Source: Arcicella rosea (GTDB lineage: Bacteria; Bacteroidota; Bacteroidia; Cytophagales; Spirosomataceae). From it: a stretch of 61,531 bases of DNA. This document shows, piece after piece, positions 7,230 through 52,228 of this stretch; within the stretch, counting starts at the first letter, position 1, and each line of letters starts with the position of its first letter. The stretch covers positions 1-61,531 of the forward strand of contig NZ_JACHKT010000031.1 of assembly GCF_014204325.1 (NCBI RefSeq), written 5' to 3'. The notes below the pieces were generated by a model. The model searched no databases, was not told the DNA's origin, and was given only the letters and a program-made list of their open reading frames with translations. The position numbers and the translations under genes were made by a program.

Positions 7230-9794
7230 ATGCTAAAAACTCAGACTAAAATTGCTCTTTTGGCTTTGTCGTGTTTTACGATTTCTGTAAACGCACAAGA
7301 TAAAAAAGGAGATACAAAAGCACCTGCAGTGGCAACAACTGCACCAGCTCCTAAACCAGCCGAAGCTCCAAAACCTGGACCTAGACCTTACAAAGAAGTA
7401 ATTACCGACAAAGCAAAAACTTCAAAAGGTCTTTTTACGGTTCATAAAATTGATGAAAAGTTTTTCTTTGAAATTCCTGATTCAATCATGGGCAAAGAAA
7501 TCATGAGTATTACTCGTTTCGCAAAAGTCGCTACTATTCCAGGTACTTATGGTGGCGAAATGTTGAACCGTCAGGTAATTCGTTTTGAAAAAGCACCTGA
7601 AAACAAAGTATTCCTTCGTGCAGTACAGTATATCAATGTTTCTCCAGATTCTGCTGCACCAATTTACAAAGCTGTAAAGAATTCAAATGTTGAACCAATC
7701 GCTCAGGCTTTTGATTTAAAAGCTATCAAAAAAGATTCTATCAGTAAAACAAGTTCATCAGTTATTGAAGTAACGGAATTTTTTAAGGGTGATAATCAGA
7801 TTTTCTCTTTGCCTCCTTATACAAAAACAACTTATAAACTTACTGCAATTGCACCTGATCGTTCTTATATTCAGTCGATAAAATCGTATCCAATCAATAC
7901 GGAAATCAGAACGGTTAAAACTTTCAATGCAATTCCGCCAATGCCAAGTTTTGGTGCGCCAAGTCCTGTACCTTCGGTTAATATTCCTGGTGCAGCAGCA
8001 GCAGGTGCTGTGACCATTGAACTTAATACTTCAATGATTTTATTGCCAAGTACACCGATGAAAAAACGTTATTTCGATAACAGAATTGGATACTTTGCAA
8101 GTGGTTATACTGTATTTGAAGAAGGTGGGCAACGCACAGAAGACCAAACTTTTGCTGTTCGTTGGAGATTAGAACCCAAAAATGCAGAAGATGCGGCTAA
8201 GCAAAAAAGAGGGGAATTGATTGAGCCGAAAAAACCAATTGTATATTATATCGACCCAGCTACTCCTGAAAAATGGCGTAAATATTTGAAATTAGGTGTT
8301 GACGATTGGCAAAAAGCTTTTGAAGCGGCTGGTTGGAAAAATGCTATCCGTGGAGAAATCTTGACTGAAAAAGATACGACAATCAGTTTAGAAGATGCTC
8401 GTTATTCTGCAATTCGTTACTTCGCTTCTGATATTGAAAATGCTTATGGCCCTAATGTAAATGACCCACGTTCTGGTGAAATCTTAGAAAGTCACATCGG
8501 TTGGTATCATAACGTAATGAAGTTATTGAAAAAATGGTACATGACCCAAGGTGCAGCAGTTGACCCACGTGCTAGAAAAAATAAATTTGATGATGAATTA
8601 ATGGGTGATTTGATTCGTTTTGTATCATCTCATGAAGTAGGTCACACAATCGGTTTACGTCACAATTATGGTTCAAGTAGTACTGTGCCAGTAGAAAAAC
8701 TTCGTGACCCGAAATGGATTGCTGAACATGGACATACGCCTTCAATCATGGATTATGCTCGTTTCAATTATGTAGCACAACCAGAAGATGGCGTGAAAGA
8801 TTTGTATCCACGCATTGGTGAATATGATATTTGGGCAATTAAATGGGCTTACCAGACATTAGATGGTGTTACACCAGAAGATGACCAAAAAACTTTGAGC
8901 AAACAGTATATTCAGGAATTTGCTAAAAACCCAAGAATTTGGTTCGGTACAGAAACAAACCCTTATGATCCACGTACACAAAGTGAATGTTTGGGCGACG
9001 ACAATATGTTGGCAAGTGATTACGGTATCAAAAACTTGAAAAGAATTGTACCCAACTTAACGGAATGGACAAAAGAAGAAGCACAAGATTTTGATATGTT
9101 GACGGAGTCTTATAACGAAATTGTTACGCAATATCGTCGTTATATCGGTCATGTTTCAAAAAATATTGGTGGTGTTTATGAAACGCCAAAAACTGCTGAC
9201 CAACAAGGTGCAGTTTATGAGCCAACTCCTAAGAGTGTTCAGAAAAGTGCTGTTTTATGGTTGAATCGTCAGGTTTTTGATACGCCATCTTGGTTATTAG
9301 ATGATAAAATTATCACTAAAATTCGTCCAGATTATGGAGTAGATGCAATCAGCCGTATTCAAGAAGCTACGCTGAATAATTTATTTACTTCAGATCGTTT
9401 ACAACGTTTAGTTGAAATGAATGCTAAAAATCCAGCTTCATATAGCTTGGATGAATTATTTACAGACGTTCGTACTTCAATTTGGTCAGAAGCACGTACT
9501 CGTAAAGTAACTGACGCTACTCGTAGAAATTTACAGAAAGTATATGTAGAAAGAATGCTTGCTATTTTAAATGGCCCAGCTGTTGGTGGTCAAGGTGGAT
9601 TTAGCTTCAGAGGAACTGTAGTGCCTGCACCAGTTGACCCACGCAAAACAGATATTACTTCGGTAACTCGTGGACATTTATTGGCATTGAAAAGCGAGCT
9701 TAAAGCTGCTTTACCTTTGACAACCGATAAAATGACAAAGTATCATTTTGAAGATGTTTTATCCAGAATCGAAAAAGGTCTTGACCCAAAGTAA
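7230..9794 (+). CDS. Secreted zinc metalloprotease, DUF5117/DUF4953 family
   Basis: 854 aa. The signal peptide (about 1-22, ending VNAQ) is followed by a low-complexity Ala/Pro/Lys linker (about 25-55), the N-terminal DUF5117/5118-type region, and a catalytic DUF4953 region. The zinc site is HEVGHTIGLRH at residues 468-478, the HExxHxxGxxH signature of metzincins, and SIMDY some 30 residues on is the expected Met-turn. Length agrees with the Bacteroidota family of large exported zinc-dependent metalloproteases of unknown substrate. No partner gene is adjacent. The proline-rich linker probably sets the enzyme off from a membrane or wall anchor (inference). Confidence 0.9.
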   Translation: MLKTQTKIALLALSCFTISVNAQDKKGDTKAPAVATTAPAPKPAEAPKPGPRPYKEVITDKAKTSKGLFTVHKIDEKFFFEIPDSIMGKEIMSITRFAKVATIPGTYGGEMLNRQVIRFEKAPENKVFLRAVQYINVSPDSAAPIYKAVKNSNVEPIAQAFDLKAIKKDSISKTSSSVIEVTEFFKGDNQIFSLPPYTKTTYKLTAIAPDRSYIQSIKSYPINTEIRTVKTFNAIPPMPSFGAPSPVPSVNIPGAAAAGAVTIELNTSMILLPSTPMKKRYFDNRIGYFASGYTVFEEGGQRTEDQTFAVRWRLEPKNAEDAAKQKRGELIEPKKPIVYYIDPATPEKWRKYLKLGVDDWQKAFEAAGWKNAIRGEILTEKDTTISLEDARYSAIRYFASDIENAYGPNVNDPRSGEILESHIGWYHNVMKLLKKWYMTQGAAVDPRARKNKFDDELMGDLIRFVSSHEVGHTIGLRHNYGSSSTVPVEKLRDPKWIAEHGHTPSIMDYARFNYVAQPEDGVKDLYPRIGEYDIWAIKWAYQTLDGVTPEDDQKTLSKQYIQEFAKNPRIWFGTETNPYDPRTQSECLGDDNMLASDYGIKNLKRIVPNLTEWTKEEAQDFDMLTESYNEIVTQYRRYIGHVSKNIGGVYETPKTADQQGAVYEPTPKSVQKSAVLWLNRQVFDTPSWLLDDKIITKIRPDYGVDAISRIQEATLNNLFTSDRLQRLVEMNAKNPASYSLDELFTDVRTSIWSEARTRKVTDATRRNLQKVYVERMLAILNGPAVGGQGGFSFRGTVVPAPVDPRKTDITSVTRGHLLALKSELKAALPLTTDKMTKYHFEDVLSRIEKGLDPK

Positions 9795-9888
9795 ATTGAG
9801 TTTAGAGTTTTGAATTTTGAGTGAGGATTAAACCTTCAAATATTCTATAGACTCTGAAAAGCGTATATTAATGTTTTTATGAAACATC

Positions 9889-9920
9889 AAAAATCCTGTC
9901 GGTAAAGGCAGGATTTTTTT
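9889..9920 (+). terminator. Intrinsic terminator after the metalloprotease gene
   Basis: Stem AAAAATCCTGTC (9889-9900) with GGCAGGATTTTT (9907-9918), loop 9901-9906, followed by T residues to 9920. Twelve pairs including one G-U. It lies 95 nt after the stop at 9794. Confidence 0.8.
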
Positions 9921-9950
9921 GTTACCTTTAAAAGATTAAAATCAAGGAAA

Positions 9951-10859
9951 ATGGATTTCGGAAAACTTCCTATACACGAGTTAAGCAAAGTAGATTTTAC
10001 TTTACAAGCCGATAATGCCTTTAACACGAAAGTGCTATCTGGTATTCCTGTGAAAAAACCAAAAGTAAAAGTCGGTTGTCCTGAATGGGCGAATAAAGAT
10101 TGGAATGGAAAAATTTATCCTCATAAAGTAAATAAGGGAGATTATTTAAGATTGCATTCAAAGCAATTTGAAACGATTGAATTGAATATTACTCATTATA
10201 AAATTCCAAATCAAGATGAAGTAAAAGCTTGGAAAGAAGACTCGGCAGAAGGCTTTACTTTCAATCCAAAATTTCCACAAGTAATTACTCACGATAATTT
10301 ATTGCAAAAATCTGATGCCATCACCAAAGTGTTTTGTGAAAGAATTTTTGAATTAGAAGAAAAACTCGGTATTCCATTTTTACAATTAGCACCCTACTTT
10401 ATGCCGAAGCATTTTCATATTTTAGAAAAGTATCTGAAAACTTTGCCAACAAATTTGAAAATTGCCGTAGAATTTCGTCATGAAGATTGGTTTAAAAATG
10501 AAAAAGTATGGCAACAAGCATTGGCATTATTACAAAGTTATGGTCATGGAACGGTGATTACTGATGTTTCTGGTAGAAGAGATGTAGCTCATCAAAGTTT
10601 GAGTAATAGCATTGCCATGATTCGTTGGACTGGCAACGAACATCCATCAGATTATCCAAGAATTGATGAATGGATTCAGAAACTTAAACTATGGTTTGAA
10701 AAAGGAGTGGAGGAGGTTTATGTTTTTGTTCATATCAACGATAAAGATTGTGTGCCAGAATTGGCTTATTATTGGATTCAGCAGTTTAATTTACATTTTA
10801 ACTTGAACCTAAAAGAACCTAAATTTTTACCAAAAGTAGAGCAGATGAGTTTGTTTTAG
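9951..10859 (+). CDS. DUF72 (YecE-like) family protein
   Basis: 302 aa, cytoplasmic. The DUF72 TIM-barrel-like fold is recognised from the early VGCPEWANKDWNGKIYP segment (about 41-58), the central KIAVEFRHEDW (about 171-181) and the late VYVFVHINDKD (about 260-270, matching the family's Y-x-F-N-N-x pattern). Function of the family is unknown. About 40 residues precede the first family motif, longer than many relatives, so an internal start is possible, but no other ATG is obviously better. Single gene, with a terminator directly upstream. Confidence 0.85.
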   Translation: MDFGKLPIHELSKVDFTLQADNAFNTKVLSGIPVKKPKVKVGCPEWANKDWNGKIYPHKVNKGDYLRLHSKQFETIELNITHYKIPNQDEVKAWKEDSAEGFTFNPKFPQVITHDNLLQKSDAITKVFCERIFELEEKLGIPFLQLAPYFMPKHFHILEKYLKTLPTNLKIAVEFRHEDWFKNEKVWQQALALLQSYGHGTVITDVSGRRDVAHQSLSNSIAMIRWTGNEHPSDYPRIDEWIQKLKLWFEKGVEEVYVFVHINDKDCVPELAYYWIQQFNLHFNLNLKEPKFLPKVEQMSLF

Positions 10860-10863
10860 TGTA

Positions 10864-10959
10864 AGCTTTCGGTTTTCGGACATCAGCTTTCGGTTTTAAA
10901 TAAGAAAAAAGAAACGTTTATAATTATAACTTAAATCCGAAATCCGACATCCGAAAGCT
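10864..10959. repeat. Imperfect inverted repeat of the TTTCGGATGTCGG family
   Basis: The left arm (AGCTTTCGG at 10864-10872, continued to 10892) can pair with the right arm (10934-10959, ending CCGAAAGCT). Similar words made of CGGATTTCGG and its complement occur at 13121-13160, 17580-17612, 22060-22168 and 38881-38930, always between genes. This is a dispersed, decayed hairpin repeat of unknown role. Confidence 0.6.
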
Positions 10960-11032
10960 CATAGCCATCGAAATAATTCTCGTTTTCTCACTAAATACCA
11001 AATCTTTAGAAAGTAAATTTCAAAATAATAAC

Positions 11033-11040
11033 TATTTTTG
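11033..11040 (+). promoter_or_regulatory. Candidate -7 box of the his operon
   Basis: TATTTTTG fits TAnnTTTG. It ends 4 nt before the hisL ATG, so the transcript would begin at or within a few bases of that ATG. Either the leader peptide is translated from a nearly leaderless mRNA or another promoter lies upstream. No clear -33 element is visible. Confidence 0.4.
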
Positions 11041-11044
11041 CATC

Positions 11045-11089
11045 ATGATTTTCAAAGGCACACATCATAACCATCATTTCGTTTCCTAA
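11045..11089 (+). CDS. hisL: his operon leader peptide, 14 aa
   Basis: ATG at 11045 opens a 14-codon frame reading MIFKGTHHNHHFVS, stop TAA at 11087-11089. Four of five consecutive codons (11063-11077) are His CAT codons, the signature of a histidine-operon attenuator leader. It lies 154 nt upstream of hisH and is followed by a set of alternative RNA helices ending in an intrinsic terminator. By the classical mechanism, scarcity of charged tRNA-His stalls the ribosome on the His run and permits antitermination. There is no Shine-Dalgarno sequence. Too short for usual ORF finders; supported by the His run, the RNA structures and the gene downstream. Confidence 0.9.
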   Translation: MIFKGTHHNHHFVS

Positions 11090-11182
11090 ACAGGAAAGGC
11101 TGATGAGTATTGTGCCAATAGCAACGACACAAGTATTCGATATAAATAGAAGCCTGATTCCTGAAAAGAGTCAGGCTTTTTT
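11082..11182 (+). promoter_or_regulatory. Histidine attenuator with competing hairpins
   Basis: Pause/protector stem: TTTCCT (11082-11087) with AGGAAA (11092-11097), spanning the hisL stop. Antiterminator: CAGGAAAGGCT (11091-11101) with AGCCTGATTCCTG (11151-11163), 11 pairs and a 2-nt bulge. Terminator: AGCCTGATTC (11151-11160) with GAGTCAGGCT (11168-11177), one G-U, then six T. The antiterminator uses the left arm of the terminator and the right arm of the protector, so the states exclude one another. A ribosome stalled on the His codons would cover 11082-11087 and free 11091-11101, favouring read-through. Confidence 0.88.
11151..11182 (+). terminator. Attenuator terminator upstream of hisH
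   Basis: Ten-pair stem (11151-11160 with 11168-11177), 7-nt loop CTGAAAA, and a T-tract at 11175-11182 whose first T residues lie in the stem. It is a premature terminator, 62 nt before hisH. Confidence 0.88.
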
Positions 11183-11243
11183 TAATGCTTAATCGGGAGT
11201 GTTGACGGTGAATTTCAAATTGTTTTTCTCTTAATTCTAAAAA

Positions 11244-11828
11244 ATGAAAACAGTAATAATCAAATACAACGCAGGAAATGTGCAGTCGGTAATGTATGCT
11301 TTGGATAGAATTGGCGTAAACTACCTTTGGACTGACGATGAAGCTGAAATCCGTTCGGCCGATAAAGTGATTTTTCCGGGCGTTGGCGAGGCAAGTACTG
11401 CTATGGCATACTTGCGTGAAAAAGGTTTGGATAAAGTAATTCCTTCGTTGAAACAACCTGTGTTAGGTACTTGTGTCGGAATGCAACTGATGTGTAAGCA
11501 TTCGGAAGAAAACGATACTACTTGTATGGGCATTTTTGATATTAATGTAAAACGTTTTGATTCAAGCAATTTCAAAGTGCCACACGTAGGTTGGAATAAT
11601 ATTTATAACCTAAAAAGTAAGTTGACAGAAGGCTTAAAAGAAAATGCCTTTATGTATTTTGTGCATAGTTATTATGCCGAAATCAGTGCATATACCGTAG
11701 CCGAATGTGATTATGTACAACCATTTTCAGCGATGCTTCACAAAGAAAATTTCTACGCCGCCCAATTCCATACCGAAATCAGTGGAAAAGAAGGACAGAG
11801 GATTATTGAGAATTTTTTGAAAGTATAG
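11244..11828 (+). CDS. hisH: Imidazole glycerol phosphate synthase, glutaminase subunit HisH
   Basis: 194 aa. HisH hydrolyses glutamine and passes ammonia to HisF, which makes imidazole glycerol phosphate and AICAR in histidine biosynthesis. The class I amidotransferase nucleophile is Cys77 in GTCVGMQLM; the His-Glu pair is in QFHTEISG near the C-terminus (usual form FHPEKSG). Early GVGEASTAM matches the family oxyanion region. It is the first structural gene after the attenuator; hisG, hisD, hisC and hisB are not in this window, so the pathway is split over at least two loci or continues elsewhere. Length is normal. Confidence 0.95.
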   Translation: MKTVIIKYNAGNVQSVMYALDRIGVNYLWTDDEAEIRSADKVIFPGVGEASTAMAYLREKGLDKVIPSLKQPVLGTCVGMQLMCKHSEENDTTCMGIFDINVKRFDSSNFKVPHVGWNNIYNLKSKLTEGLKENAFMYFVHSYYAEISAYTVAECDYVQPFSAMLHKENFYAAQFHTEISGKEGQRIIENFLKV

Positions 11829-11835
11829 ATTTTAA

Positions 11836-12381
11836 GACTTTAGGACTGGAGGACTTTAGGATTTGAAGACAGAAGGACTTTAGACTAAAGGATTTAACAA
11901 ACGTGATTTTTACAGAGTATTTAAACTTCTTTATTTTATGAGAGGAGATAATTTTAGAGAATTAAATGTTTGGAAACAAGCCGTTGCTTTTGTGACTGAA
12001 ATGTATGTTATCACCAAAATATTTCCTCAAGAAGAACAGTATGGGTTAACGTCTCAGATTAGAAGAGCCTCGGTTTCTATTCCTTCAAACATTGCTGAAG
12101 GTTCAGGAAGGAGTGACAAAGATTTTACCCGTTTTGTAGATATGAGTCTCTCATCGGCTTATGAAGTAGAAACGCAATTAATAATAGCTAAGAATTTAGG
12201 ATATATTTCAGAAGATAATTTTCAGATTCTGATTGAAAATCTAAGAAGTATAGAAAATCAATTACATGGTTTATCAAAATATTTAAATAGGACTAAATGA
12301 CTTTAGGATTTGAGGACTTTAGGACTGAGGACAAGTATTTTAAATCGTCTTTAAGTCCTAAAGTCTTCCAGTCCTAAAGTC
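11836..12381 (+). mobile_element. IVS-like element: S23 gene enclosed by a long inverted repeat
   Basis: Left arm L (11836-11870) and right arm R2 (12347-12381) can form a continuous 35-bp RNA duplex; the outer 26 positions are 25/26 identical as inverted repeats and the sole difference is a G-U pair. A second copy, R1 (12299-12332), lies in the same orientation as L, begins inside the S23 stop codon, and can pair with R2 instead, leaving a 14-nt loop. The element fills nearly the whole hisH-hisA gap: L starts 8 nt after the hisH stop and R2 ends 10 nt before the hisA ATG. The arms consist of GACTTTAGGACT-like words. The layout equals that of 23S rRNA intervening sequences, which carry S23 genes in a long stem-loop; mobility is inferred. 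Confidence 0.7.
11938..12300 (+). CDS. Four-helix-bundle S23 / intervening-sequence protein family
   Basis: 120 aa. The family signature QIRRASVSIPSNIAEGSGR lies at about residues 38-56, preceded by FRELNVWKQAV and followed by amphipathic helices, giving the usual four-helix bundle (TIGR02436-type; also related to bAvd of diversity-generating retroelements). Family proteins form pentameric, basic bundles thought to bind nucleic acid; in some bacteria the gene is in an intervening sequence of 23S rRNA. Here it sits between hisH and hisA inside inverted repeats and has no evident role in histidine synthesis. The start ATG follows a TTTATTTT stretch without a Shine-Dalgarno sequence. No reverse transcriptase or variable repeat is present, so a DGR role is unsupported. 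Confidence 0.9.
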   Translation: MRGDNFRELNVWKQAVAFVTEMYVITKIFPQEEQYGLTSQIRRASVSIPSNIAEGSGRSDKDFTRFVDMSLSSAYEVETQLIIAKNLGYISEDNFQILIENLRSIENQLHGLSKYLNRTK

Positions 12382-12390
12382 CCCCAAAAA

Positions 12391-13113
12391 ATGATTCAAA
12401 TTATTCCAGCCATAGACTTAATTGACGGAAAATGTGTTCGTCTTACGCAGGGCGATTATGCTCAGAAAAAAATCTATAACGAAAACCCTTTAGAAGTAGC
12501 CAAGTCTTTTGAAGATGCAGGTATTCAGCGTTTGCATTTGGTAGATTTAGACGGTGCAAAACAAAAACGTATCGTCAATCATAAAGTATTAGAATTGTTG
12601 GCGACCAAAACTAATCTTCATATTGACTTTGGAGGAGGAGTACAATCAGACGAAATGATTGAAATCGCTTTTAATTCTGGAGCAAAACAAGTAACAGGCG
12701 GAAGTGTAGCGGTTAAAAATCCTGAATTATTTGAAGGATGGTTACAAAGCTATGGCGGAGAAAAAATTATTCTCGGAGCAGATGCTCGTGATGAAAAAAT
12801 TGCCATTTCGGGTTGGGAAGAAGCTACCACTACTTCTGTGTATGATTTTGTCGGAAATTATATCGAAAAAGGAGCGAAGTATGCGATTTCAACAGATGTA
12901 GCTAAAGATGGATTATTAGAAGGACCAAGTTTTCAATTATATAAAAATCTCCAAGATCAGTTTCCAAGCTTACAAATTATTGCCAGCGGAGGAGTATCTG
13001 TAATGGATGATATTTTGAAATTAGATGAAATGAATATCTTCGGAGTAATCGTCGGCAAAGCGATTTATGAAGGTAGAATTACTTTAAAACAGATTGCAGA
13101 TTTACATAAATAG
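12391..13113 (+). CDS. hisA: Phosphoribosylformimino-AICAR ribotide isomerase HisA
   Basis: 240 aa. HisA isomerises ProFAR to PRFAR, the substrate of HisH/HisF. The (beta/alpha)8 barrel is recognised from [19 protein letters not shown] (catalytic Asp8), the half-barrel phosphate motifs DFGGGVQSD and [10 protein letters not shown], and the second catalytic Asp in [10 protein letters not shown] (about residue 170). Length is standard. The ATG is 10 nt after the right arm of the S23-containing repeat; translation must therefore initiate next to a possible long hairpin. Confidence 0.95.
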
Positions 13114-13415
13114 ATGTTGGGATTTCGGGTATCGGATTTCAGATGTCGGATTTCGGCAGTTTAAGGAAATTAAAATCCAAATAAAATTTACAAGTCTTTA
13201 ATCTTGAATCTTGTATCTAAAATCTTGCGTCTTTAAGTCCCAAAGTCTTCAAGTCTCAAAATCAAAAAAAGTCTTGAATCTTGTATCTAAAATCTTATGT
13301 CTTTAAGTCCTAAAGTCTCAAAATCCTAAAGTCCAGATAAAAAAATCTTGAATCTTGTGTCTTTTACCTAAGTACCTTTAGTCTTAAAGTCATTAAGTCT
13401 TAAAGTCAAAAAAAT
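13114..13415. repeat. Repeat-filled hisA-hisF gap with three tandem 70-74-bp units
   Basis: The 302-bp gap begins with TTCGG/ATCGG words (13121-13160). Three tandem units each start with TCTTGAATCTTG at 13202, 13272 and 13346. The first two share the following GTATCTAAAATCTT; all contain AAGTCcTAAAGTC-like words at their ends, the same words that build the arms of the S23 element upstream. It looks like decayed arm sequence lacking a gene. No terminator with a T-run is seen, so transcription into hisF is plausible. Confidence 0.75.
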
Positions 13416-14186
13416 ATGCTTACAAAAAGAATAATTCCTTGTCTTGATATAAAAGACGGTCGCACAGTGAAAGGCACAAATTTCGTGAACCTTCGTGATG
13501 CTGGAGACCCCGTAGAATTAGGTGCCATTTACGCTGAACAAGGAGCAGACGAATTGGTATTTTTAGATATTACAGCAACAGTTGACAATCGCAAAACATT
13601 AATTGATTTAGTAAGAAACGTTGCTCGAAATGTAAATATTCCATTTACCGTAGGCGGAGGAATTTCTTCAATTGAAGACGTTTCGGCTTTGCTCAATGCA
13701 GGTGCGGATAAAGTATCTATCAATTCATCGGCTGTTAGAAGACCAGAATTGATTAATGAATTAGCCTTGCAGTTTGGTTCGCAATGTATCATCGTGGCGA
13801 TTGATACTCGTTTTATTGTTACTGAAAATGGAATTTCAGAACACATCGTTCATACACACGGAGGAAGAAAACCAACGGCTTTGCGTACTTTGGCTTGGGC
13901 AAAAGAAGTAGAAGAGCGTGGAGCAGGAGAAATTTTGTTGACTTCAATGGATACCGACGGCACGAAAGCTGGCTTTGCCAATGAATTAACAGCAGAAATT
14001 TCAAGTAATTCGTCTATTCCAATCATTGCATCTGGCGGAGCGGGAACGATGGAACATTTCAACGAAGTATTTACTGTTGGAAAAGCTGATGCAGGTTTGG
14101 CAGCAAGTATTTTCCATTTCAAGGAAATAGATATTATTGAATTAAAAGAGTATTTAAGAGAAAAGGGAATCCCTGTAAGATTATAA
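13416..14186 (+). CDS. hisF: Imidazole glycerol phosphate synthase, cyclase subunit HisF
   Basis: 256 aa. It uses ammonia from HisH to convert PRFAR to imidazole glycerol phosphate and AICAR. Starts with [17 protein letters not shown] (catalytic Asp11); other barrel motifs are [20 protein letters not shown], the second catalytic Asp in [14 protein letters not shown] (about residue 177) and [13 protein letters not shown]. Normal length. The stop is 26 nt before the preferred hisIE start. Confidence 0.96.
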
Positions 14187-14212
14187 TTTTGCGGAAAATT
14201 AAATTCAAAAAC

Positions 14213-14812
14213 ATGCAAGTAGATTTTGAAAAACAGGGAGGATTAATCCCTGCTGTCATCCAAGATGCTAAGACAGATAAAGTATTAATGCTTGGTTATA
14301 TGAACCAAGAAGCTTTGGAGAAAACAGAGCGTGAAGGCGTCGTAACTTTTTTCAGCCGTTCTAAGCAACGTCTCTGGACAAAAGGCGAAACATCTGATAA
14401 TTTCTTACACGTTGTAGAAATTTTGAAAGATTGTGATGAAGATACTTTGTTGATTAAAGTAAATCCTGCTGGCCCAACTTGCCATACTGGATCGGATACT
14501 TGTTGGGGTGAAAAAAATGAACCGGGACAAGCTGGTTGGTTGAATCACCTAAAAGCAGTTATTCGTGACCGCAAAAATAATCCTTCAGAGAAGTCTTACA
14601 CAGCTAGTTTATTTGAAAAAGGAACGAATAAAATTGCTCAGAAAGTAGGAGAGGAAGCAGTAGAATTAGTGATTGAGGCGATGGATTCTAACGATGAGCT
14701 ATTCAAAGGTGAAGCTGCTGACTTATTATTTCATTATTTAGTCCTATTAGAGCAAAGAGGACTTGATTTTGATGAAATTATTGATGTACTTCGCTCAAGA
14801 CATTCACGATAA
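14213..14812 (+). CDS. hisIE: Bifunctional phosphoribosyl-AMP cyclohydrolase / phosphoribosyl-ATP pyrophosphatase
   Basis: 199 aa from ATG at 14213; an in-frame TTG at 14189 would add 8 residues before the family begins and is less likely. It catalyses steps 2 and 3 of histidine synthesis. The HisI domain (about 1-110) shows MLGYMNQEAL, SRSKQRLWTKGETS, and the metal-binding segment GPTCHTGSDTCWG; the HisE domain (about 115-199) shows the helical GEEAVELVIEA and EAADLLFHYLVLL motifs. TAATTTTG at 14184-14191, a TAnnTTTG match, lies just upstream and could be an internal promoter. It is the last recognised his gene in this operon. Confidence 0.95.
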   Translation: MQVDFEKQGGLIPAVIQDAKTDKVLMLGYMNQEALEKTEREGVVTFFSRSKQRLWTKGETSDNFLHVVEILKDCDEDTLLIKVNPAGPTCHTGSDTCWGEKNEPGQAGWLNHLKAVIRDRKNNPSEKSYTASLFEKGTNKIAQKVGEEAVELVIEAMDSNDELFKGEAADLLFHYLVLLEQRGLDFDEIIDVLRSRHSR

Positions 14813-14843
14813 AATTAATTTCAATCTTAGAACAATTTGTGAA

Positions 14844-15188
14844 ATGACAAACTTCATTATCAAATATTTAATCATTGCCATTGTGGTTATGTTTGGGTCA
14901 AAGTACATTAATGGCATTAGTATCGACGGCTTTCAAACGTCTATATTAGTGGTGTTAGCGATGGGTTTTGCCAATACATTTTTGAAACCTATATTAAAAC
15001 TCATTAGCTTCCCAATTACGGTGCTTTCTTTGGGTTTATTTCTTTTAGTTATCAATGTAATCGTAGTATATATTGTAGATTACTTTATTGATGGCTTTCA
15101 TGTTAATGGCTTTGTTCCTCCTTTGATTTTTAGTTTTGTTTTATCAATAACCTCAACGGTTTTGGGTTGGTTTTTTGATAAAGATTAA
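14844..15188 (+). CDS. Phage holin family / DUF-type small membrane protein
   Basis: 114 aa from ATG 14844; the open frame extends back into hisIE, but those residues are charged and not family-like. About four transmembrane segments (about 5-22, 30-50, 57-80, 92-110) with the ANTFLKPILKLISFPITVLSLGLF pattern, in pieces NTFLKPIL and FPITVLSLG, identify the PF04020-type membrane family (YvlD-like). Despite the name there is no prophage here; these are ordinary chromosomal proteins of unknown role. It is 31 nt downstream of hisIE and may be co-transcribed. Confidence 0.85.
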   Translation: MTNFIIKYLIIAIVVMFGSKYINGISIDGFQTSILVVLAMGFANTFLKPILKLISFPITVLSLGLFLLVINVIVVYIVDYFIDGFHVNGFVPPLIFSFVLSITSTVLGWFFDKD

Positions 15189-15234
15189 GATTATATAAGT
15201 ATTTCGTACTAGATTTTCTTACTGTTAAGTACTT

Positions 15235-15288
15235 GTTTTTCAATTGTGTATAAATATTATAATAAAAATTTACACACAATTGAAAAAC
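15235..15288. promoter_or_regulatory. Long imperfect palindrome upstream of a small secreted-protein gene
   Basis: GTTTTTCAATTGTGT (15235-15249) is perfectly complementary to 15274-15288; after one mismatch four more pairs follow (15251-15254 with 15269-15272), leaving a 14-nt loop. There is no T-run on either exit, so it is not a typical terminator. It ends 14 bp before a TAnnTTTG box and could be an operator for a dimeric regulator (inference). Confidence 0.55.
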
Positions 15289-15301
15289 TAAAAAAAACGA
15301 T

Positions 15302-15309
15302 TACATTTG
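15302..15309 (+). promoter_or_regulatory. Candidate -7 box for the TonB-C-like gene
   Basis: TACATTTG matches TAnnTTTG, 153 nt upstream of the ATG at 15463, giving a long 5' untranslated region. The palindrome at 15235-15288 overlaps where RNA polymerase would bind upstream. Confidence 0.4.
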
Positions 15310-15462
15310 TATTCGTATTTACCACAAGGTAATTTTTTGAGAATATGCTATTTTGTATGTGAGTTCAAAATAATACTCTTTTTGGTCGTTTGTTCATCAT
15401 TTCTCTAAGCAATTGATAGGTATTACCCTGTTTTGAATTTATAAAGTCCTAAGTAATAAATA

Positions 15463-15957
15463 ATGAAAAATTTTACACTCTTTGGCTTAGTCCTTTTGTT
15501 AGGAATTAATGCCAAAGCACAAAAGAGTACCATTTCAACCAATTCTTTTTCTGAAAAAGATAAAAATCTCATAGCAAGTGTTTTGGAAATACAAAGTCCT
15601 GTCAGTAAAAAAGACAAGGAAAGAAGTTCATATTTCAAGAACATTACATTAGATTTGGATTCAACTTATTACGATGTTGAAACCCCTGCAATGTTTTCGG
15701 AAGGACAGGATGGATTGAATAAATTTATTTGCCAAAATTTGGTTCGCCCCAATGAATCAAAAGGTGAAACCGTTCTAGTAAGATTTAAAGTAGAGCGTTT
15801 TGGTGAGATTTCTAAAATTCATGTTTTAGATAATGGTACTTCGCCAAAATCGAGTGCTGAAGCAATAAATCTTGTCAAGAAAATGAAAACTTGGATTCCT
15901 GCCAAGATACAAGGAATCCCCGTTGCTTCTTTTTATGTTTTACCGATAAAATTCTAG
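15463..15957 (+). CDS. Secreted protein with TonB C-terminal-like domain
   Basis: 164 aa. Signal peptide about 1-19 (FTLFGLVLLLGINAKAQ). The C-terminal half (about 85-164) resembles the TonB_C fold used in many Bacteroidota periplasmic proteins: ...VRPNESKGETVLVRFKVE, then FGEISKIHVLDNG and ...WIPAKIQGIPVAS. It lacks a membrane anchor and Pro-rich linker, so it is not a conventional TonB. Function unknown. It converges with a lipoprotein gene whose stop is one base away. Confidence 0.65.
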   Translation: MKNFTLFGLVLLLGINAKAQKSTISTNSFSEKDKNLIASVLEIQSPVSKKDKERSSYFKNITLDLDSTYYDVETPAMFSEGQDGLNKFICQNLVRPNESKGETVLVRFKVERFGEISKIHVLDNGTSPKSSAEAINLVKKMKTWIPAKIQGIPVASFYVLPIKF

Positions 15958-15958
15958 C

Positions 15959-16345
15959 TTACTCTTCTGGCATTCCTCTTTGGAAATTTACTTCAGTTGC
16001 CATTCCCATGGCACTGAATCTTACTGCCATCATTTGTGCGTTCGATTTCTTTTTAACGTCTTCACAATGATTGCCTGGCTCTAAAAAGTAAATATAATAT
16101 TCTTGGCTGCGGTCGGCTAATTGCTGAATGTCTGGCTTGCCTAAATAATCGTCTAAATCGTTTGAGCTTACTCCTTTGATTTCCTCTTTCAATGATTTTA
16201 GTTTATCAACCATTTGCAATCTTTCACCTTTGCAGCCACCGAAATCATTTTTAAATTTTTCTAAATCTAAACCATCTAATTTTGGTTGTTTTGTGCAAGA
16301 GGCACAAGTAACTAATACGAGTAATATATAAATTGTATGTTTCAT
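15959..16345 (-). CDS. Small predicted lipoprotein
   Basis: 128 aa. Signal peptide with lipobox CASC at about residues 14-17 (YILLVLVTCASC), so the mature protein should be lipid-anchored. The mature part is charged, with two further Cys (in GGCKGER and NHCEDVKKK) that could form a disulfide. No family recognised. The stop lies one base from that of the convergent 15463-15957 gene, with no room for a terminator between. Confidence 0.65.
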   Translation of the reverse strand: MKHTIYILLVLVTCASCTKQPKLDGLDLEKFKNDFGGCKGERLQMVDKLKSLKEEIKGVSSNDLDDYLGKPDIQQLADRSQEYYIYFLEPGNHCEDVKKKSNAQMMAVRFSAMGMATEVNFQRGMPEE

Positions 16346-16427
16346 GTTTTTGGAATAATATCCATTATTTAAGCTTATAAGTTTTAATTAGTAAAGCAAT
16401 TTATCTATCAATCTAACATCCAAAATC

Positions 16428-17573
16428 CTAAAGTTTTGATAGCTTTTCTCCTGCTCTTTCTAAAGTTTCATCATCTTTGGCAAAACAAAATCGTAGAATT
16501 TTAAAATCATTTTTTTGATGATAAAATACTGAAACTGGAATACTTGCTACTCCAATTTCCTTCGTTAAGCGAATCGCCAAATCATAATCGTTTTCCTGCG
16601 TAATTTTTTCATAATTCACACATTGAAAAAAACTACCTTTTGCTGGCGTAAAGGTAAAGCGAGAATCTTGAATACAAGTCAAAAACTTATCACGTTTCTC
16701 TTGATAGAACTGCGGAATGGAAAGATAGTTTTCAGGTTCTTGCAAGAAATCTGCTAACGCATATTGAATCGGAGTGACCGTTGAGAATGTTAGCCATTGA
16801 TGTACTTTCCTGAATTCTTCACTTAGTTGTTTGGGAGCGAGACAATATCCAACTTTCCAGCCTGTAACATGAAAAGTTTTTCCGAAAGAACCACAAATAA
16901 AACTACGTTCTTTCAAAACAGGATTGCGAAGTAAAGACCAGTGTGATAATCCGTCAAAAATGATATGTTCATATACTTCATCGCTAATCAAAAAAATATT
17001 GGTGTCTTTCAAAATATCAGACAAACGATTCAAATCTTCTTCTGAAAGTACAGTTCCTGTAGGATTATGAGGAGTATTGAGTATAATTAGTTTGGTCTTT
17101 TCAGTAATTTTTGATTTTACAATACTCCAATCAATTTTATACTCGTTCTCTGGCGTTAAAGTTACATAAACAGGAATTCCACCATTCAAAGTAATAGCAG
17201 GCGTGTAAGAGTCATAACAAGGCTCTAGCAGAATAACCTCGTCGCCTTGATGAACAATAGCTGTAATGGCTGCATAAAGAGCTTCTGTTGCACCCGAAAC
17301 GACAGTTACTTCGCTATCTGGATGATAATTTACTTGATATAAATCACTTACTTTCTGGGCAATAATTTCTCGAAGCGATTGAATACCTGCCATTGGGGCA
17401 TATTGGTTCATTCCTTTTTTGAGGTAATGATTGACCAACTCAGTCAGTTTAGGAGAACAATCAAAATTTGGAAAACCCTGTGATAGATTCAACGCTTCGT
17501 GTTCAGAAGCTAATTTTGACATTACCGTGAAAATAGTCGTTCCTGTATTGGGTTGTTTAGAAATCAAATTCAT
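16428..17573 (-). CDS. Methionine-type PLP aminotransferase (YbdL-like)
   Basis: 381 aa, fold-type I aminotransferase. Motifs: NLSQGFPNFDCS (about 29-40), NQYAPMAGIQSLRE (substrate/cofactor loop), VVSGATEALYAA, LNTPHNPTG (Asn contacts PLP), the PLP lysine in GSFGKTFHVTGWKVGY (about residue 233), and the terminal LRFCFAKDDETL with the carboxylate-binding Arg. These match the methionine aminotransferase (YbdL/Kat III-like) group that transaminates 2-keto-4-methylthiobutyrate in methionine salvage. Substrate is inferred from family. Monogenic; the 147 nt upstream holds a CGG-type degenerate repeat. Confidence 0.88.
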   Translation of the reverse strand: MNLISKQPNTGTTIFTVMSKLASEHEALNLSQGFPNFDCSPKLTELVNHYLKKGMNQYAPMAGIQSLREIIAQKVSDLYQVNYHPDSEVTVVSGATEALYAAITAIVHQGDEVILLEPCYDSYTPAITLNGGIPVYVTLTPENEYKIDWSIVKSKITEKTKLIILNTPHNPTGTVLSEEDLNRLSDILKDTNIFLISDEVYEHIIFDGLSHWSLLRNPVLKERSFICGSFGKTFHVTGWKVGYCLAPKQLSEEFRKVHQWLTFSTVTPIQYALADFLQEPENYLSIPQFYQEKRDKFLTCIQDSRFTFTPAKGSFFQCVNYEKITQENDYDLAIRLTKEIGVASIPVSVFYHQKNDFKILRFCFAKDDETLERAGEKLSKL

Positions 17574-17579
17574 TTTTAA

Positions 17580-17612
17580 ATGCTTTCGGTTTTTGGCTTT
17601 CAGATGTCAGAT
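17580..17612. repeat. Degenerate TTTCGG/CAGATGTCAG repeat
   Basis: TGCTTTCGG and GCTTTCAGATGTCAG words just upstream of the aminotransferase start, belonging to the same dispersed family as 10864-10959. Confidence 0.45.
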
Positions 17613-17720
17613 TTTATATTGGTTATCTTAGGAATATGAAGCTCGTAAGAACTGTTTACTTGAATTAACTATATTTTCTTTATTAATTCACTAAATCACA
17701 ACTCACTAATTCACAAATAT

Positions 17721-25316: not shown

Positions 25317-25339
25317 TTAGGAATTAATATGTTATTTCT

Positions 25340-25347
25340 CAAATATA
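25340..25347 (-). promoter_or_regulatory. Candidate -7 box of rnr
   Basis: Minus strand TATATTTG, an exact TAnnTTTG match, 24 nt before the rnr ATG. Confidence 0.45.
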
Positions 25348-25452
25348 CGGAAAAACTACCCGATTTCTTTACTATTTAGTGAATGAGTGATTTGGCGAAT
25401 GAGTGATTTAATGATTTGGCAATTAATAATTTAATGCCAACGCTCATTGTGG

Positions 25453-35407: not shown

Positions 35408-36550
35408 ATGACTAGATTTTACTACTCTCTATTATTGGCATTACTCTGTATAAATTTGGGGAAAGCACAAGCAGAGATTGAAGCTCAAACTTTGATTCGA
35501 CAATATCAATATGAAAAAGCTATTGGTATTTTGAAAGATTGCCCGACGATTACTTGTCGTTTAGATTTAGCTTTTTGTTTGGTGAAAGCTGGAAGAATAA
35601 AAGAGGCAATAGATAATTACCAATCTGTCTTAGAGAAAGAACCAGCCAATACTTTGGCGATGATGAATTTGGCAAGTCTTTATGAAAAAAGTAATAAATT
35701 ATTTCAAGCCAAGAAAACCTATCAAACTTTATTGAAAATTGATTCTACAAATGCTTTCGTTTATAAAAGCTACGCAATACTTTGTCTAAAATTTTCGGAA
35801 GATTCTCTGGCGAAGATTTATTTCAAAAAAGCGATTGCAATTAATCCCGCAGATGTAGAAAATATTGTAGAATTAGGAAGACTTTTAGTGAAATCCGACA
35901 GTATTCCTGAAGCTCATAAATTGATAAATAAAGGAATACTTTTAGACACAACTTATATTGCACTTTGGCATTTAAAGGCTAGGGCAAATTATCGTGAAAG
36001 TAATTTTAAGCCAGTGGTTGCCTCTATCAAAAAAGCTATGGCTTTGGGCGATTCTACGATTAGTTATCAGCAATTGTTGGGTTACTCTTACTTTTATTTA
36101 GATAGTATTCCGCAAGCAATTGCTTGTTTTGAGAAAGTATTGTCAGTAGAAATAGAATCAGAACCAGCCTTTTTTTACTTAGGTTTATGCTATACAAAAC
36201 TGAAAAAAGAAGAAGTGGCACTTCAATATTTTCAACAAGCGATTAATGCTGGTTTGTCGGATGATTTACCAAAATATTACGAAAGAATAGGTTTTATTGA
36301 TGAGAAAAATGCCAGATATAATAACGCTATTGATGCCTATCAAAAAGCATGGGAATATTCAGCAAAAGATGATTACTTATATTTGATTGCCAGAGTAAAT
36401 GATTGGAAATCAACAAATAAAACGAAAGTCTTGAAGTTGTACAAACAGTATCTTTTATCGAAAAATAAAAAAAATACAGAATACATTACTTTAGCGACGG
36501 CAAGAATTAAAGAATTAGAGGCTGTTAAAGATGCAAAGGTAAAACCTTAG
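35408..36550 (+). CDS. Exported TPR-repeat protein
   Basis: 380 aa. Signal peptide about 1-21 (ending GKAQA). About nine tetratricopeptide repeats follow from residue 25 to 345, for example AIDNYQSVLEKEPANTLAMM, AKIYFKKAIAINPADVENIV and AIACFEKVLSVEIESEPAFF. TPR solenoids bind protein partners; none can be named. Many secreted Bacteroidota TPR proteins work in the periplasm. It is a single gene, followed at once by a MITE-like element. A palindrome at 35375-35388 may regulate it. Confidence 0.82.
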   Translation: MTRFYYSLLLALLCINLGKAQAEIEAQTLIRQYQYEKAIGILKDCPTITCRLDLAFCLVKAGRIKEAIDNYQSVLEKEPANTLAMMNLASLYEKSNKLFQAKKTYQTLLKIDSTNAFVYKSYAILCLKFSEDSLAKIYFKKAIAINPADVENIVELGRLLVKSDSIPEAHKLINKGILLDTTYIALWHLKARANYRESNFKPVVASIKKAMALGDSTISYQQLLGYSYFYLDSIPQAIACFEKVLSVEIESEPAFFYLGLCYTKLKKEEVALQYFQQAINAGLSDDLPKYYERIGFIDEKNARYNNAIDAYQKAWEYSAKDDYLYLIARVNDWKSTNKTKVLKLYKQYLLSKNKKNTEYITLATARIKELEAVKDAKVKP

Positions 36551-36566
36551 AGAATCTACATTTTAA

Positions 36567-36808
36567 AAACATGAGTCATCCCGAATTTTCTCTTGAAAAA
36601 GTGAATTTTAAAAGATTTCAATGTTTTTTGGATTGGTTCTCGTCCTTACTTTTTGCCTTGATGCAAAAAGTAACAAAAAAATCAAGAATTCCTAAACTCG
36701 CTTCGCTCAAACAGTAGGAATTCGTTGTTCATCAATCACAAAAAAGCGGTCGAAATTAGTTTTTCGACCGCTTTTTTGTGATTTTAAAATTCGGGATGAC
36801 TCATGTTT
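36567..36808. mobile_element. MITE-like element, copy A (242 bp)
   Basis: Bounded by perfect 23-bp terminal inverted repeats (36567-36589 and 36786-36808; AAACATGAGTCATCCCGAAT followed by TTT). Inside lie a terminator-like hairpin AAAAAAGCGGTCGAAA/TTTCGACCGCTTTTTT (about 36746-36777) and an inverted pair GAATTCCTA/TAGGAATTC around CTCGCTTCGCTC. No ORF, so any movement would be in trans. A related copy lies in opposite orientation at 51963-52212 and part of one at 61355. Confidence 0.8.
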
Positions 36809-36812
36809 CCTG

Positions 36813-36831
36813 TACGACTTGGAAAGTCGTA
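36813..36831. repeat. Small hairpin TACGACTT-GGA-AAGTCGTA
   Basis: Perfect 8-bp stem with a 3-nt loop between the MITE-like element and the GH43-like stop. Same style as the hairpins at 43061-43075 and 55842-55890. Confidence 0.55.
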
Positions 36832-36839
36832 GTACCATT

Positions 36840-50863: not shown

Positions 50864-51955
50864 ATGAAAATACTCATAACCATTGCCAATTCCATGTTAA
50901 AAAGAAGTTTTCTGTTGATATTGTGTATATTATCTTGGTCTTTTGCAGAGGCTCAGGATCCGCAATATTCACAGTTTTATGCAGCACCCATGTTTTTAAA
51001 TCCTGCTTTTGCGGGTTCTGCTAAAGCTCCTAGAGTGAGTTTAAATCATAGAAATCAATGGCCATCATTAAGTGCTAATTTTGTTACTTCATCACTTTCT
51101 GCGGATTTGTATTTAGAAAAACTGAATAGTGGTGTTGGTTTATTGCTCACTTCCGACCGTCAGTTTACTAATTTAACCACAACTGATATTGGTGCTATTT
51201 ACTCTTATCACCTTAAAATTAGTGATGGTTTAAGAGCGAATTTAGGGGTTCAAGGTTCGTATGTTACTCGTGGGGTAAATTTTGCAGATTATACTTTTGG
51301 TGACCAAATTAACACTTATCTGACTACTGGAGCGTATCCACGTTATTCTTCCGACCAAATTTTACAAGGTGGAAATAATCTTACTCCACAATTGAAATAC
51401 TGGGATTTCTCAACAGGTGCAATTGTTTATGGAGAACAGTTTTGGGTCGGAGCATCCGTTCATCATATCAATCAACCAAATCAATCTTTTTCAAATCAAA
51501 ATGCTGTTTTACCTGTCAGAATCGGTATTCAAGCAGGGTTCAATATTCCTTTGGATGATTATATGTTAGGAAATAATTTGGGTGATGCCGTTGACAGAGA
51601 GAAAAGTATTACGCCTGTCGTTCATTACCGACGTCAGGGACAATCAGATCAATTAGATGTGGGTGCGTACTTAACGTATTCGCCAATTGTAATTGGAGCT
51701 TGGTACAGAGGAATTCCTATTAAAACATACAAGAAAGATAACACAAGTATTGTTAGTCACGATGCTTTGGTGTTTTTGGTCGGTTATCGACAAGATAATT
51801 TTTCGATAGGATACAGTTATGATGCTACGATTTCAAGGTTAAGTTCGACAGGCGGAGCACATGAATTGTCAATTTCATATATTTTCAGTGATTTAATTCA
51901 GCCGAAGCGAAATGCCCGTCCGAGAAAAGGCGAATTGAAATGTCCGAAGTTTTAA
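50864..51955 (+). CDS. PorP/SprF-family type IX secretion membrane protein
   Basis: 363 aa (353 if ATG 50894 is used, which gives a neater signal peptide MLKRSFLLILCILSWSFAEA). The N-terminal DPQYSQFYAAPMFLNPAFAG is the hallmark of the PorP/SprF family, followed by a beta-barrel with GIQAGFNIPL and VGAYLTYSPIVIGAWYRG. In Bacteroidota these outer-membrane proteins attach or help export a type B T9SS cargo encoded next to them. Here the cargo is the divergent 1401-aa protein. A MITE-like element follows 7 nt after the stop. Confidence 0.93.
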   Translation: MKILITIANSMLKRSFLLILCILSWSFAEAQDPQYSQFYAAPMFLNPAFAGSAKAPRVSLNHRNQWPSLSANFVTSSLSADLYLEKLNSGVGLLLTSDRQFTNLTTTDIGAIYSYHLKISDGLRANLGVQGSYVTRGVNFADYTFGDQINTYLTTGAYPRYSSDQILQGGNNLTPQLKYWDFSTGAIVYGEQFWVGASVHHINQPNQSFSNQNAVLPVRIGIQAGFNIPLDDYMLGNNLGDAVDREKSITPVVHYRRQGQSDQLDVGAYLTYSPIVIGAWYRGIPIKTYKKDNTSIVSHDALVFLVGYRQDNFSIGYSYDATISRLSSTGGAHELSISYIFSDLIQPKRNARPRKGELKCPKF

Positions 51956-51962
51956 ATAGAAT

Positions 51963-52212
51963 ACATGAGTCATCCCGAATTTTAAAATCACAAAAAAGCG
52001 GTCAAAAAACTAATTTCGACCGCTTTTTTATGATTGATGGGCAACGAATTCCTACTGTTTGAGCGAAGCGAGTTTAGGAATTCTTGAATTTCTTTTGTTA
52101 CTTTTCTTGTTTCAAGACAAGAAAAGTAAGGATTGTACAATAATAAATATAAAAACCTCTCAAATCGTCCTATACCTCACTATTCTAAGAAAAAATTCGG
52201 GATGACTCATGT
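51963..52212. mobile_element. MITE-like element, copy B (about 250 bp)
   Basis: Terminal inverted repeats ACATGAGTCATCCCGAATTT at 51963-51982 and its complement ending at 52212. Compared with copy A it is inverted: the AAAAAAGCGGTC/GACCGCTTTTTT hairpin is next to the left end. The inner GAATTCCTA/TAGGAATTC pair with GAGCGAAGCGAG is kept. It lies between two convergent genes (PorP/SprF and ettA), where its hairpin could end transcription. Confidence 0.8.
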
Positions 52213-52228
52213 TTCTGAAAATAATGAT

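Follow-up and report, generated by a model that had tools for sequence, protein, structure and literature searches.

An S23 gene between inverted repeat arrays fills the hisH-hisA junction of Arcicella rosea, an anatomy that recurs at S23 genes in many phyla

Introduction

The closest described relatives of the element reported here are the intervening sequences (IVS) of 23S rRNA genes. That of Coxiella burnetii has 28-bp terminal inverted repeats and is cleaved by RNase III; it carries an S23 gene in its loop, in the sense orientation, with tandem heptamers ahead of the S23 start, and this ORF is reportedly undergoing reductive evolution (PMC4990558).

Short repeats of this kind have also been described apart from rRNA. 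Intergenic G-rich heptamers occur in Xanthomonas and Nostoc, and convergent pairs of them number 70 and 75 in two genomes of Xanthomonas (PMC4692102); the terms "S23" and "helix bundle" are absent from the main text of that paper. Direct heptamers are reported from Beggiatoaceae and some Bacteroidetes in a paper in which neither "23S" nor "four helix" was found (PMC4679880). A fish-pathogen genome report places, uncommented in the passages concerned, a four helix bundle gene between the genes for guanylate kinase and nicotinate-nucleotide adenylyltransferase (PMC5524665), a position comparable to those described below, and a figure of novel associations in a CRISPR survey shows a 23S rRNA IVP (PMC10910872). 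Among the matches listed from the open-access literature, no account was found of operon-borne S23 genes flanked by repeat arms.

REP elements are intergenic inverted repeats, many of them without a gene. Diversity-generating retroelements contain Avd, a distant relative of S23. We describe here an S23 gene with long complementary flanks in the window, the whole stretch of 61,531 nucleotides of A. rosea DNA that was analysed, and compare it with S23 loci of other bacteria.

Results

The element in the hisH-hisA junction

The host genome of the element is 5.31 Mb in size, and the identities of hisH, hisA, hisF and hisIE are confirmed by NCBIfam models. The S23 gene lies in the loop of a long potential stem, and the element fills the gap between hisH and hisA, at the coordinates given in the initial annotation (Table 1). 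Only 7 nt separate the hisH stop from arm L and 9 nt separate arm R2 from the hisA start, and between the arms S23 is the sole ORF of at least 60 aa on either strand.

Table 1. Features of the hisH-hisA junction and its surroundings in the window
Feature	Position	Strand	Support
hisH, upstream neighbour	11244..11828	+	TIGR01855, 196 bits
Arm L: G-rich 5' arm of tandem 8-nt units	11836..11870	+	pairs with R2, z 11.7
S23 gene, 120 aa, 23S rRNA intervening-sequence protein, four-helix bundle	11938..12300	+	PF05635, TIGR02436
Arm R1: extra 5'-type arm, local hairpin with R2 possible	12299..12326	+	28 nt, 89%
Arm R2: C-rich 3' arm, the complement of L	12347..12381	+	inverted-repeat and fold analysis
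hisA, downstream neighbour	12391..13113	+	TIGR00007, 249 bits
hisA-hisF gap: arrays of similar short repeats, without S23	13114..13415	+	6 of 17 repeat-pattern matches (13234-13407)

Arms L and R2 form the unbroken RNA duplex of 35 bp that had been predicted for them, with 32 Watson-Crick pairs (91%), three G-U pairs and a computed energy of -61.2 kcal/mol; the outer 26 positions, read directly from the sequence, comprise 25 Watson-Crick pairs and one G-U pair, again as first described. The flank complementarity of this S23 gene has z = 11.7 against dinucleotide shuffles, and the fold of the whole hisH-hisA gap, at -155.3 kcal/mol (z = -6.4), is equalled by none of 100 shuffles. A local hairpin between R1 and R2 is also possible (-46.6 kcal/mol), for which no distant partner is necessary; the computed ensemble favours L-R2, with 34.9 expected pairs versus 0.0 for the local hairpin. 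The enclosure of an S23 gene by pairing arms is thereby confirmed as real and beyond chance.

The element resembles the S23-bearing 23S rRNA IVS of Coxiella and Leptospira in having S23 in the loop and in the sense orientation, complementary ends and short repeats in the 5' arm, these being heptamers in C. burnetii and 8-nt units here. It differs in its location, since it lies in a protein operon and not in helix 9, 25 or 45 of an rRNA; the only over-threshold Rfam match in the window is a 5S rRNA at 1-89. As in REP/RAYT systems, intergenic inverted repeats are present, but no transposase lies between the arms, which are tandem 7-8-mers of variable sequence. In contrast to diversity-generating retroelements, the cassette has no reverse transcriptase, S23 being alone in the loop; among the ORFs overlapping 8000-16500 no reverse transcriptase and no template/variable repeats were seen by eye.

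At the next junction of the operon, the hisA-hisF gap measures 420-502 nt in three other genera (L050, L052 and L064) and contains an apparent small ORF, seen by eye, which we take to be acetyltransferase-like.

Short repeats in the A. rosea genome

The arms in the window are tandem 8-nt repeats resembling GACTTTAG, with a lag-8 autocorrelation of z 5.6 in the gap 11829-11937. The repeat is over-represented in the genome as a whole, with 273 matches versus 128 for the reversed pattern (at most three mismatches), and all 13 clusters of matches inspected by eye are at places without S23. A period of 7 or 8 reaches z > 3 in six of the 30 window gaps of at least 50 nt; such gaps without S23, at 10860-11243, 9795-9950, 17574-17720 and 25317-25452, are made of other sequence. 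The window gaps 36550-36839 and 51955-52228 have in common a longer repeat with the ends ATGAGTCATCCCGAATTTT, possibly a separate repeat family, and a similar one occurs in L157.

Five S23 genes were found in this genome. A check of all of them, proposed when the element was first noticed, shows complementary flanks at every one (z 5.9, 6.0, 7.0, 7.8 and 11.7), and by eye the repeats differ at each.

Complementary flanks at S23 genes in general

Flank complementarity was scored at S23 genes in two sets, using longest-ORF gene calls. In Cytophagales, 115 S23 loci gave 99 distinct ORFs, 82 of them with both flanks long enough; of these 59 have z > 3 and 43 have z > 5. In a cross-phyla set of 80 named loci, 55 of the 71 that were testable have z > 3. 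Loci with a flank under 16 nt, 17 of 99 and nine of 80 respectively, count as untestable, often because the ORF caller began the next gene inside the arm. Merging the sets gives 114 of 152 testable loci above z = 3, 81 above z = 5 and 38 not above z = 3, counts that exclude plasmid loci and in which identical ORFs alone were dropped, so that the two sets may overlap by a few loci. The S23 loci were retrieved best-first, which may favour typical copies.

Complementary flanks are rare at control genes, taken as genes of 100-300 codons. A sample of 59 stretches from the same order supplied 481 non-S23 genes; 277 of them could be tested, of which 11 have z > 3 and four z > 5. The same-contig controls of the cross-phyla set gave 12 of 88 above z = 3, and in a re-run seven of the 11 that passed proved to be further S23 genes.

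Exchange of arms between loci shows how far each pair is matched to itself. The mean arm score is 18.7 with a locus's own arm versus 8.7 with arms from other loci; with 60 swapped arms per locus, the own arm comes out ahead of every one in 70 of 152 loci and ahead of 58 or more in 103 of 152. One or more of the 60 foreign arms fit equally well in 82 of the 152.

Besides Bacteroidota, the cross-phyla loci include some labelled Acidobacteria, Chloroflexi, Verrucomicrobiia, Nitrospirae, Nitrosomonadales, Elusimicrobia, KSB1, Atribacterota and SAR324, and an alphaproteobacterial S23 locus scored only z 0.1. On cyanobacterial plasmids, for which 27 records matched and eight were read, the seven testable loci range from z 3.0 to 10.8. 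The suggestion that the hisH-hisA element might represent a class is thus borne out by the recurrence of armed S23 loci in many phyla. The element is one instance of a general rule, by which S23 genes are enclosed by inverted arms built from tandem repeats of 7 or 8 nt, with each locus having its own repeat. In this variation of the arm repeats from locus to locus the operon cassettes differ from the rRNA IVS; that variation, and the enclosure of a specific gene family, also distinguish them from the Xanthomonas and Nostoc heptamers.

Anatomy of the arms

Autocorrelation of 109 arms shows a clear rise only at 7, 8, 14 and 16 nt, and the best lag is 7 or 8 in 50 of 55. In the 5' arm G outnumbers C in 51 of 53 loci (one opposite, one tie) and in 49 of 55 (three opposite, three ties), the set of 53 being the 59 Cytophagales loci with z > 3 less six that were omitted for overlong alignments. 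This G-rich-first polarity belongs to the element, because an inverted repeat whose G-rich half comes first on one strand has it first on the other as well. The possibility that a G-rich 5' arm is a feature of the transcribed strand was rejected on this ground. S23-free hairpins in the congeners of genome G115 (see below) are by eye mostly C-rich first.

The arms fit closely to the stop and start codons of the neighbouring genes. In 96 co-directional loci with z > 3 the arm length has a median of 34, the arm begins a median of 4 nt past the upstream stop (quartiles 0-7), and the 3' arm stops a median of 9 nt ahead of the next start (quartiles 6-15). Both neighbours are co-directional with S23 in 81 of 91 and 66 of 73 cases (about 90%), compared with 237 of 481 and 80 of 146 (49-55%) for control genes. 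This co-orientation with the operon argues that transcription matters.

Sites occupied by S23 cassettes

Junctions of core biosynthetic genes look favoured. S23 occupies the junction of the small and large methylmalonyl-CoA mutase genes in L272 (z 15.2) and the hemL/hemE junction in L258, where the arms were seen by eye only. In the leu cluster of L403 it is found both at leuC/leuD and ahead of leuB, with z 6.2 each; the leu cluster of L402 has S23 genes with z 0.9 and 1.7, and other S23 genes score 2.2 in L400 and, for one gene, 3.2 in L401. On cyanobacterial plasmids it lies at cas10/cmr3 (L391, z 3.1) and cas6/cas4 (L393, z 9.3). In another such plasmid, L394, an armed S23 gene is placed between two ribonucleotide reductase genes, on the opposite strand.

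The densest case is the mur/fts cluster of genome G168, in which five S23 genes occupy five successive junctions (L399:256-7350; G168:C10:60256-67350), the last four being mraY/murD, murD/ftsW, ftsW/murG and murG/murC. Automatic scoring reached only two of the five, with z 10.5 and 0.8; in a blastn self-comparison the first and third are bracketed by inverted repeats of 26-29 nt, and the rest was judged by eye. Four of these S23 genes are mutually 26-49% identical and the fifth is unmatched at E 1e-3, from which we conclude that they are not recent copies of one another.

History of the hisH-hisA junction and of a fast-changing site

A search of 222 genomes of the family Spirosomataceae shows S23 in the same hisH-hisA gap in six, four of genus g5, which we infer to be Spirosoma, and two of genus g9, which is Fibrella by its locus L275. 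These six copies are the four best matches after the window's own S23, plus the tenth and the fifteenth. By eye, their arms likewise span the distance from the hisH stop to the hisA start but consist of other repeats, so that different genera have different arm repeats at this one junction. In the S23 tree the six group apart from the window's copy; two arrivals are preferred and a single clade is not rejected (p-AU 0.145). The site has therefore seen one or two uses, with arms that today vary from genus to genus. The initial annotation had read the element as a free-standing, IVS-like element that had jumped into a protein operon. A self-contained layout of this type, with the S23 ORF looped out by a long stem and away from rRNA, is indeed present; the presence of S23 at the same junction in two other genera, with other arm repeats, leaves a jump as a recent event unsupported.

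Among 59 close hisH-hisA junctions S23 is present in seven, four of which have a hairpin of z > 3. Of the 52 S23-free junctions, 29 are only 0-71 nt long and 10 have a hairpin of z > 3 (gaps under 20 nt being unscored); several are arms-only hairpins of similar style, as in G082, G025, G033 and G035. An empty site was sought in seven congeners of A. rosea. None has hisH just upstream of hisA, two contigs giving only 208 and 983 bases; hisH is located elsewhere in six of them and was found nowhere in the seventh, so they cannot serve for comparison.

A second junction, followed in six congeneric species (L368, L382-L386), holds S23 in only one of them and shows how quickly such sites can change. 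In G115 an armed S23 gene (z 7.0) lies antisense to both neighbours in a gap of 569 nt. Five congeners of G115 have 77-132 nt at this junction, with main flanks 85-96% identical, and all five gaps are S23-free hairpins (z 10.1 to 21.0) whose arms vary by species and are unlike the arms in G115. At one and the same junction, hairpins are therefore replaced faster than the surrounding genes change. The search for a clean empty site bearing a target duplication found none: each of the five congeners holds some hairpin, which leaves no blank site to align, and a separate comparison matched none of four congeners.

How the arms are maintained

The G-U pair in the outer arms had been taken as a sign of selection for RNA pairing, and this is not supported by the wider comparison. 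Mismatches of the G-U and A-C types number 58 and 49 in 53 arm pairs and 68 and 76 in 55 arm pairs, 126 versus 125 in total; selection on the sense RNA should favour G-U, so these about equal counts give no sign of it. Compensatory change was likewise rejected as the means of arm upkeep. In 500 aligned pairs from 28 locus pairs, from which pairs with short flanks, low arm scores or low flank identity were excluded and in which alignment is unsure within tandem repeats, there are 17 double changes (8.4 expected), of which just nine are complementary. One-sided changes between relatives number 96, and of these 12 lead to G-U, 24 to A-C and 60 to other non-pairs. The equality of mismatch types and the predominance of one-sided, uncompensated changes make the arms look as if they were made or renewed at the DNA level; they are probably created and renewed there, and not kept by base-by-base selection on RNA.

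The S23 protein

The window's S23 matches PF05635 with 126.7 bits (cut-off 33.8) and TIGR02436, the four helix bundle protein, with 119.5 bits, also over its cut-off; its solved relative is 2GSC (E 2.6e-22). Against PF22296 (bAvd) it scores 25.5 bits, under the cut-off of 40. Of 67 close pairs of S23 genes 47 gave a dN/dS value, many of them non-independent through a common member; 43 lie at 0.03-0.18, and the remaining four are 0.21, 0.21, 0.26 and 0.58, of which the two highest come from pairs that differ little. The S23 protein is conserved here under purifying selection, in contrast to the reductive evolution reported for the C. burnetii IVS ORF. Carriage by phages was rejected, as a search of 50,697 phage records at E 1e-5 gave no match to the S23 of the window.

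Discussion

A cassette that fills the whole space between two operon genes, with an anatomy that recurs at S23 genes in many phyla, raises the question of what it does. By analogy with its rRNA counterparts, the element most likely works in its protein operon as an intervening sequence does in rRNA, although by location it is not one, and we think it reasonably probable that it is one copy of an S23 hairpin cassette that behaves like an RNA-processed IVS within the operon. The cassette would be transcribed by read-through along with the host operon, and the arms would close into a long double-stranded stem; RNase III may then free the S23 message without damage to the cistrons on either side, as is documented for the S23-bearing rRNA IVS. 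The arms themselves are probably made by repeat slippage and the copying of one arm from the other. Both RNase III processing and mobility of the cassette are inferred. Against this reading stand the lack of an RNA-level signature, the 38 testable loci not above z = 3, the 82 loci in which a foreign arm fits equally well, the hairpins of z > 3 in only four of the seven S23-bearing hisH-hisA gaps, the failure to find a clean empty site, the S23-free arrays that are common in the window's genome and the antisense position of the armed S23 gene in G115.

The same antisense copy counts in favour of a reading in which S23 has hairpin arms of DNA (or cDNA) as its target, serving mobility or the growth of arrays, and RNA pairing is a by-product. 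The cassette would then be a transposase-free relative of REP/RAYT elements, with the S23-free arrays as its non-autonomous copies. A DNA process predicts the near equality of G-U and A-C mismatches, and is consistent with the different hairpins at one junction in close species, with arms-only hairpins at sites shared with S23 copies, and with the service that the S23 relatives Avd give to a reverse transcriptase (PMC10053308). The density of S23-free hairpins, however, shows little relation to S23 copy number (Spearman 0.17, p 0.22; 57 genomes, one to three stretches each), and copy number was rejected as their cause, a null result qualified by the fewer S23-free hairpins in genomes without S23 (p 0.017). 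The strong co-orientation with neighbours, which points to transcription mattering, also weighs against an action on DNA, and we regard it as rather unlikely, though the most credible of the alternatives. That S23 is a normal operon gene whose flanks carry short repeats common in the intergenic regions of such genomes is less probable still. The arm repeats are indeed widespread without S23 in A. rosea, a local R1-R2 hairpin exists, and by eye some S23 genes appear to have a complete hairpin on either side; but complementary flanks are rare at non-S23 genes of the same order, and genomes such as G167 and G205, without any hairpin of score 20 or more in the sampled 20 kb, nevertheless have armed S23 genes (L131, z 6.4; L149, z 10.0). 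Regulation of hisA by the stem, as an attenuator or a block to translation initiation with S23 merely in the loop, would suit the short distance from R2 to the hisA start, which equals the median of the 96 loci. It seems most improbable, since a similar stem precedes unrelated genes (those of the leu, cas and methylmalonyl-CoA mutase loci L403, L391, L393 and L272) and a hairpin is found in so few of the scored S23-free hisH-hisA junctions.

Returning to the IVS-like cassette, a wider proposal can be put forward tentatively, with somewhat more doubt than belief: that S23 cassettes are a cosmopolitan mobile class adapted to the junctions of core-gene operons, in which S23 would recognise, and spread or renew, inverted arrays of 7-8 nt, and that the rRNA IVS may be a special landing place for this class.

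Taken with the breadth of the armed loci, these observations point to the S23 cassette as a widespread, barely described kind of genetic cassette in operons. The strong link between S23 and the arrays gives a likely substrate for S23 and a simple test, and the finding is of high interest because the arm rule makes the function of S23 testable. It also counsels caution over guilt by association, in that an S23 gene found next to cas, leu or mur genes may represent a cassette insertion and not a partner in the pathway.
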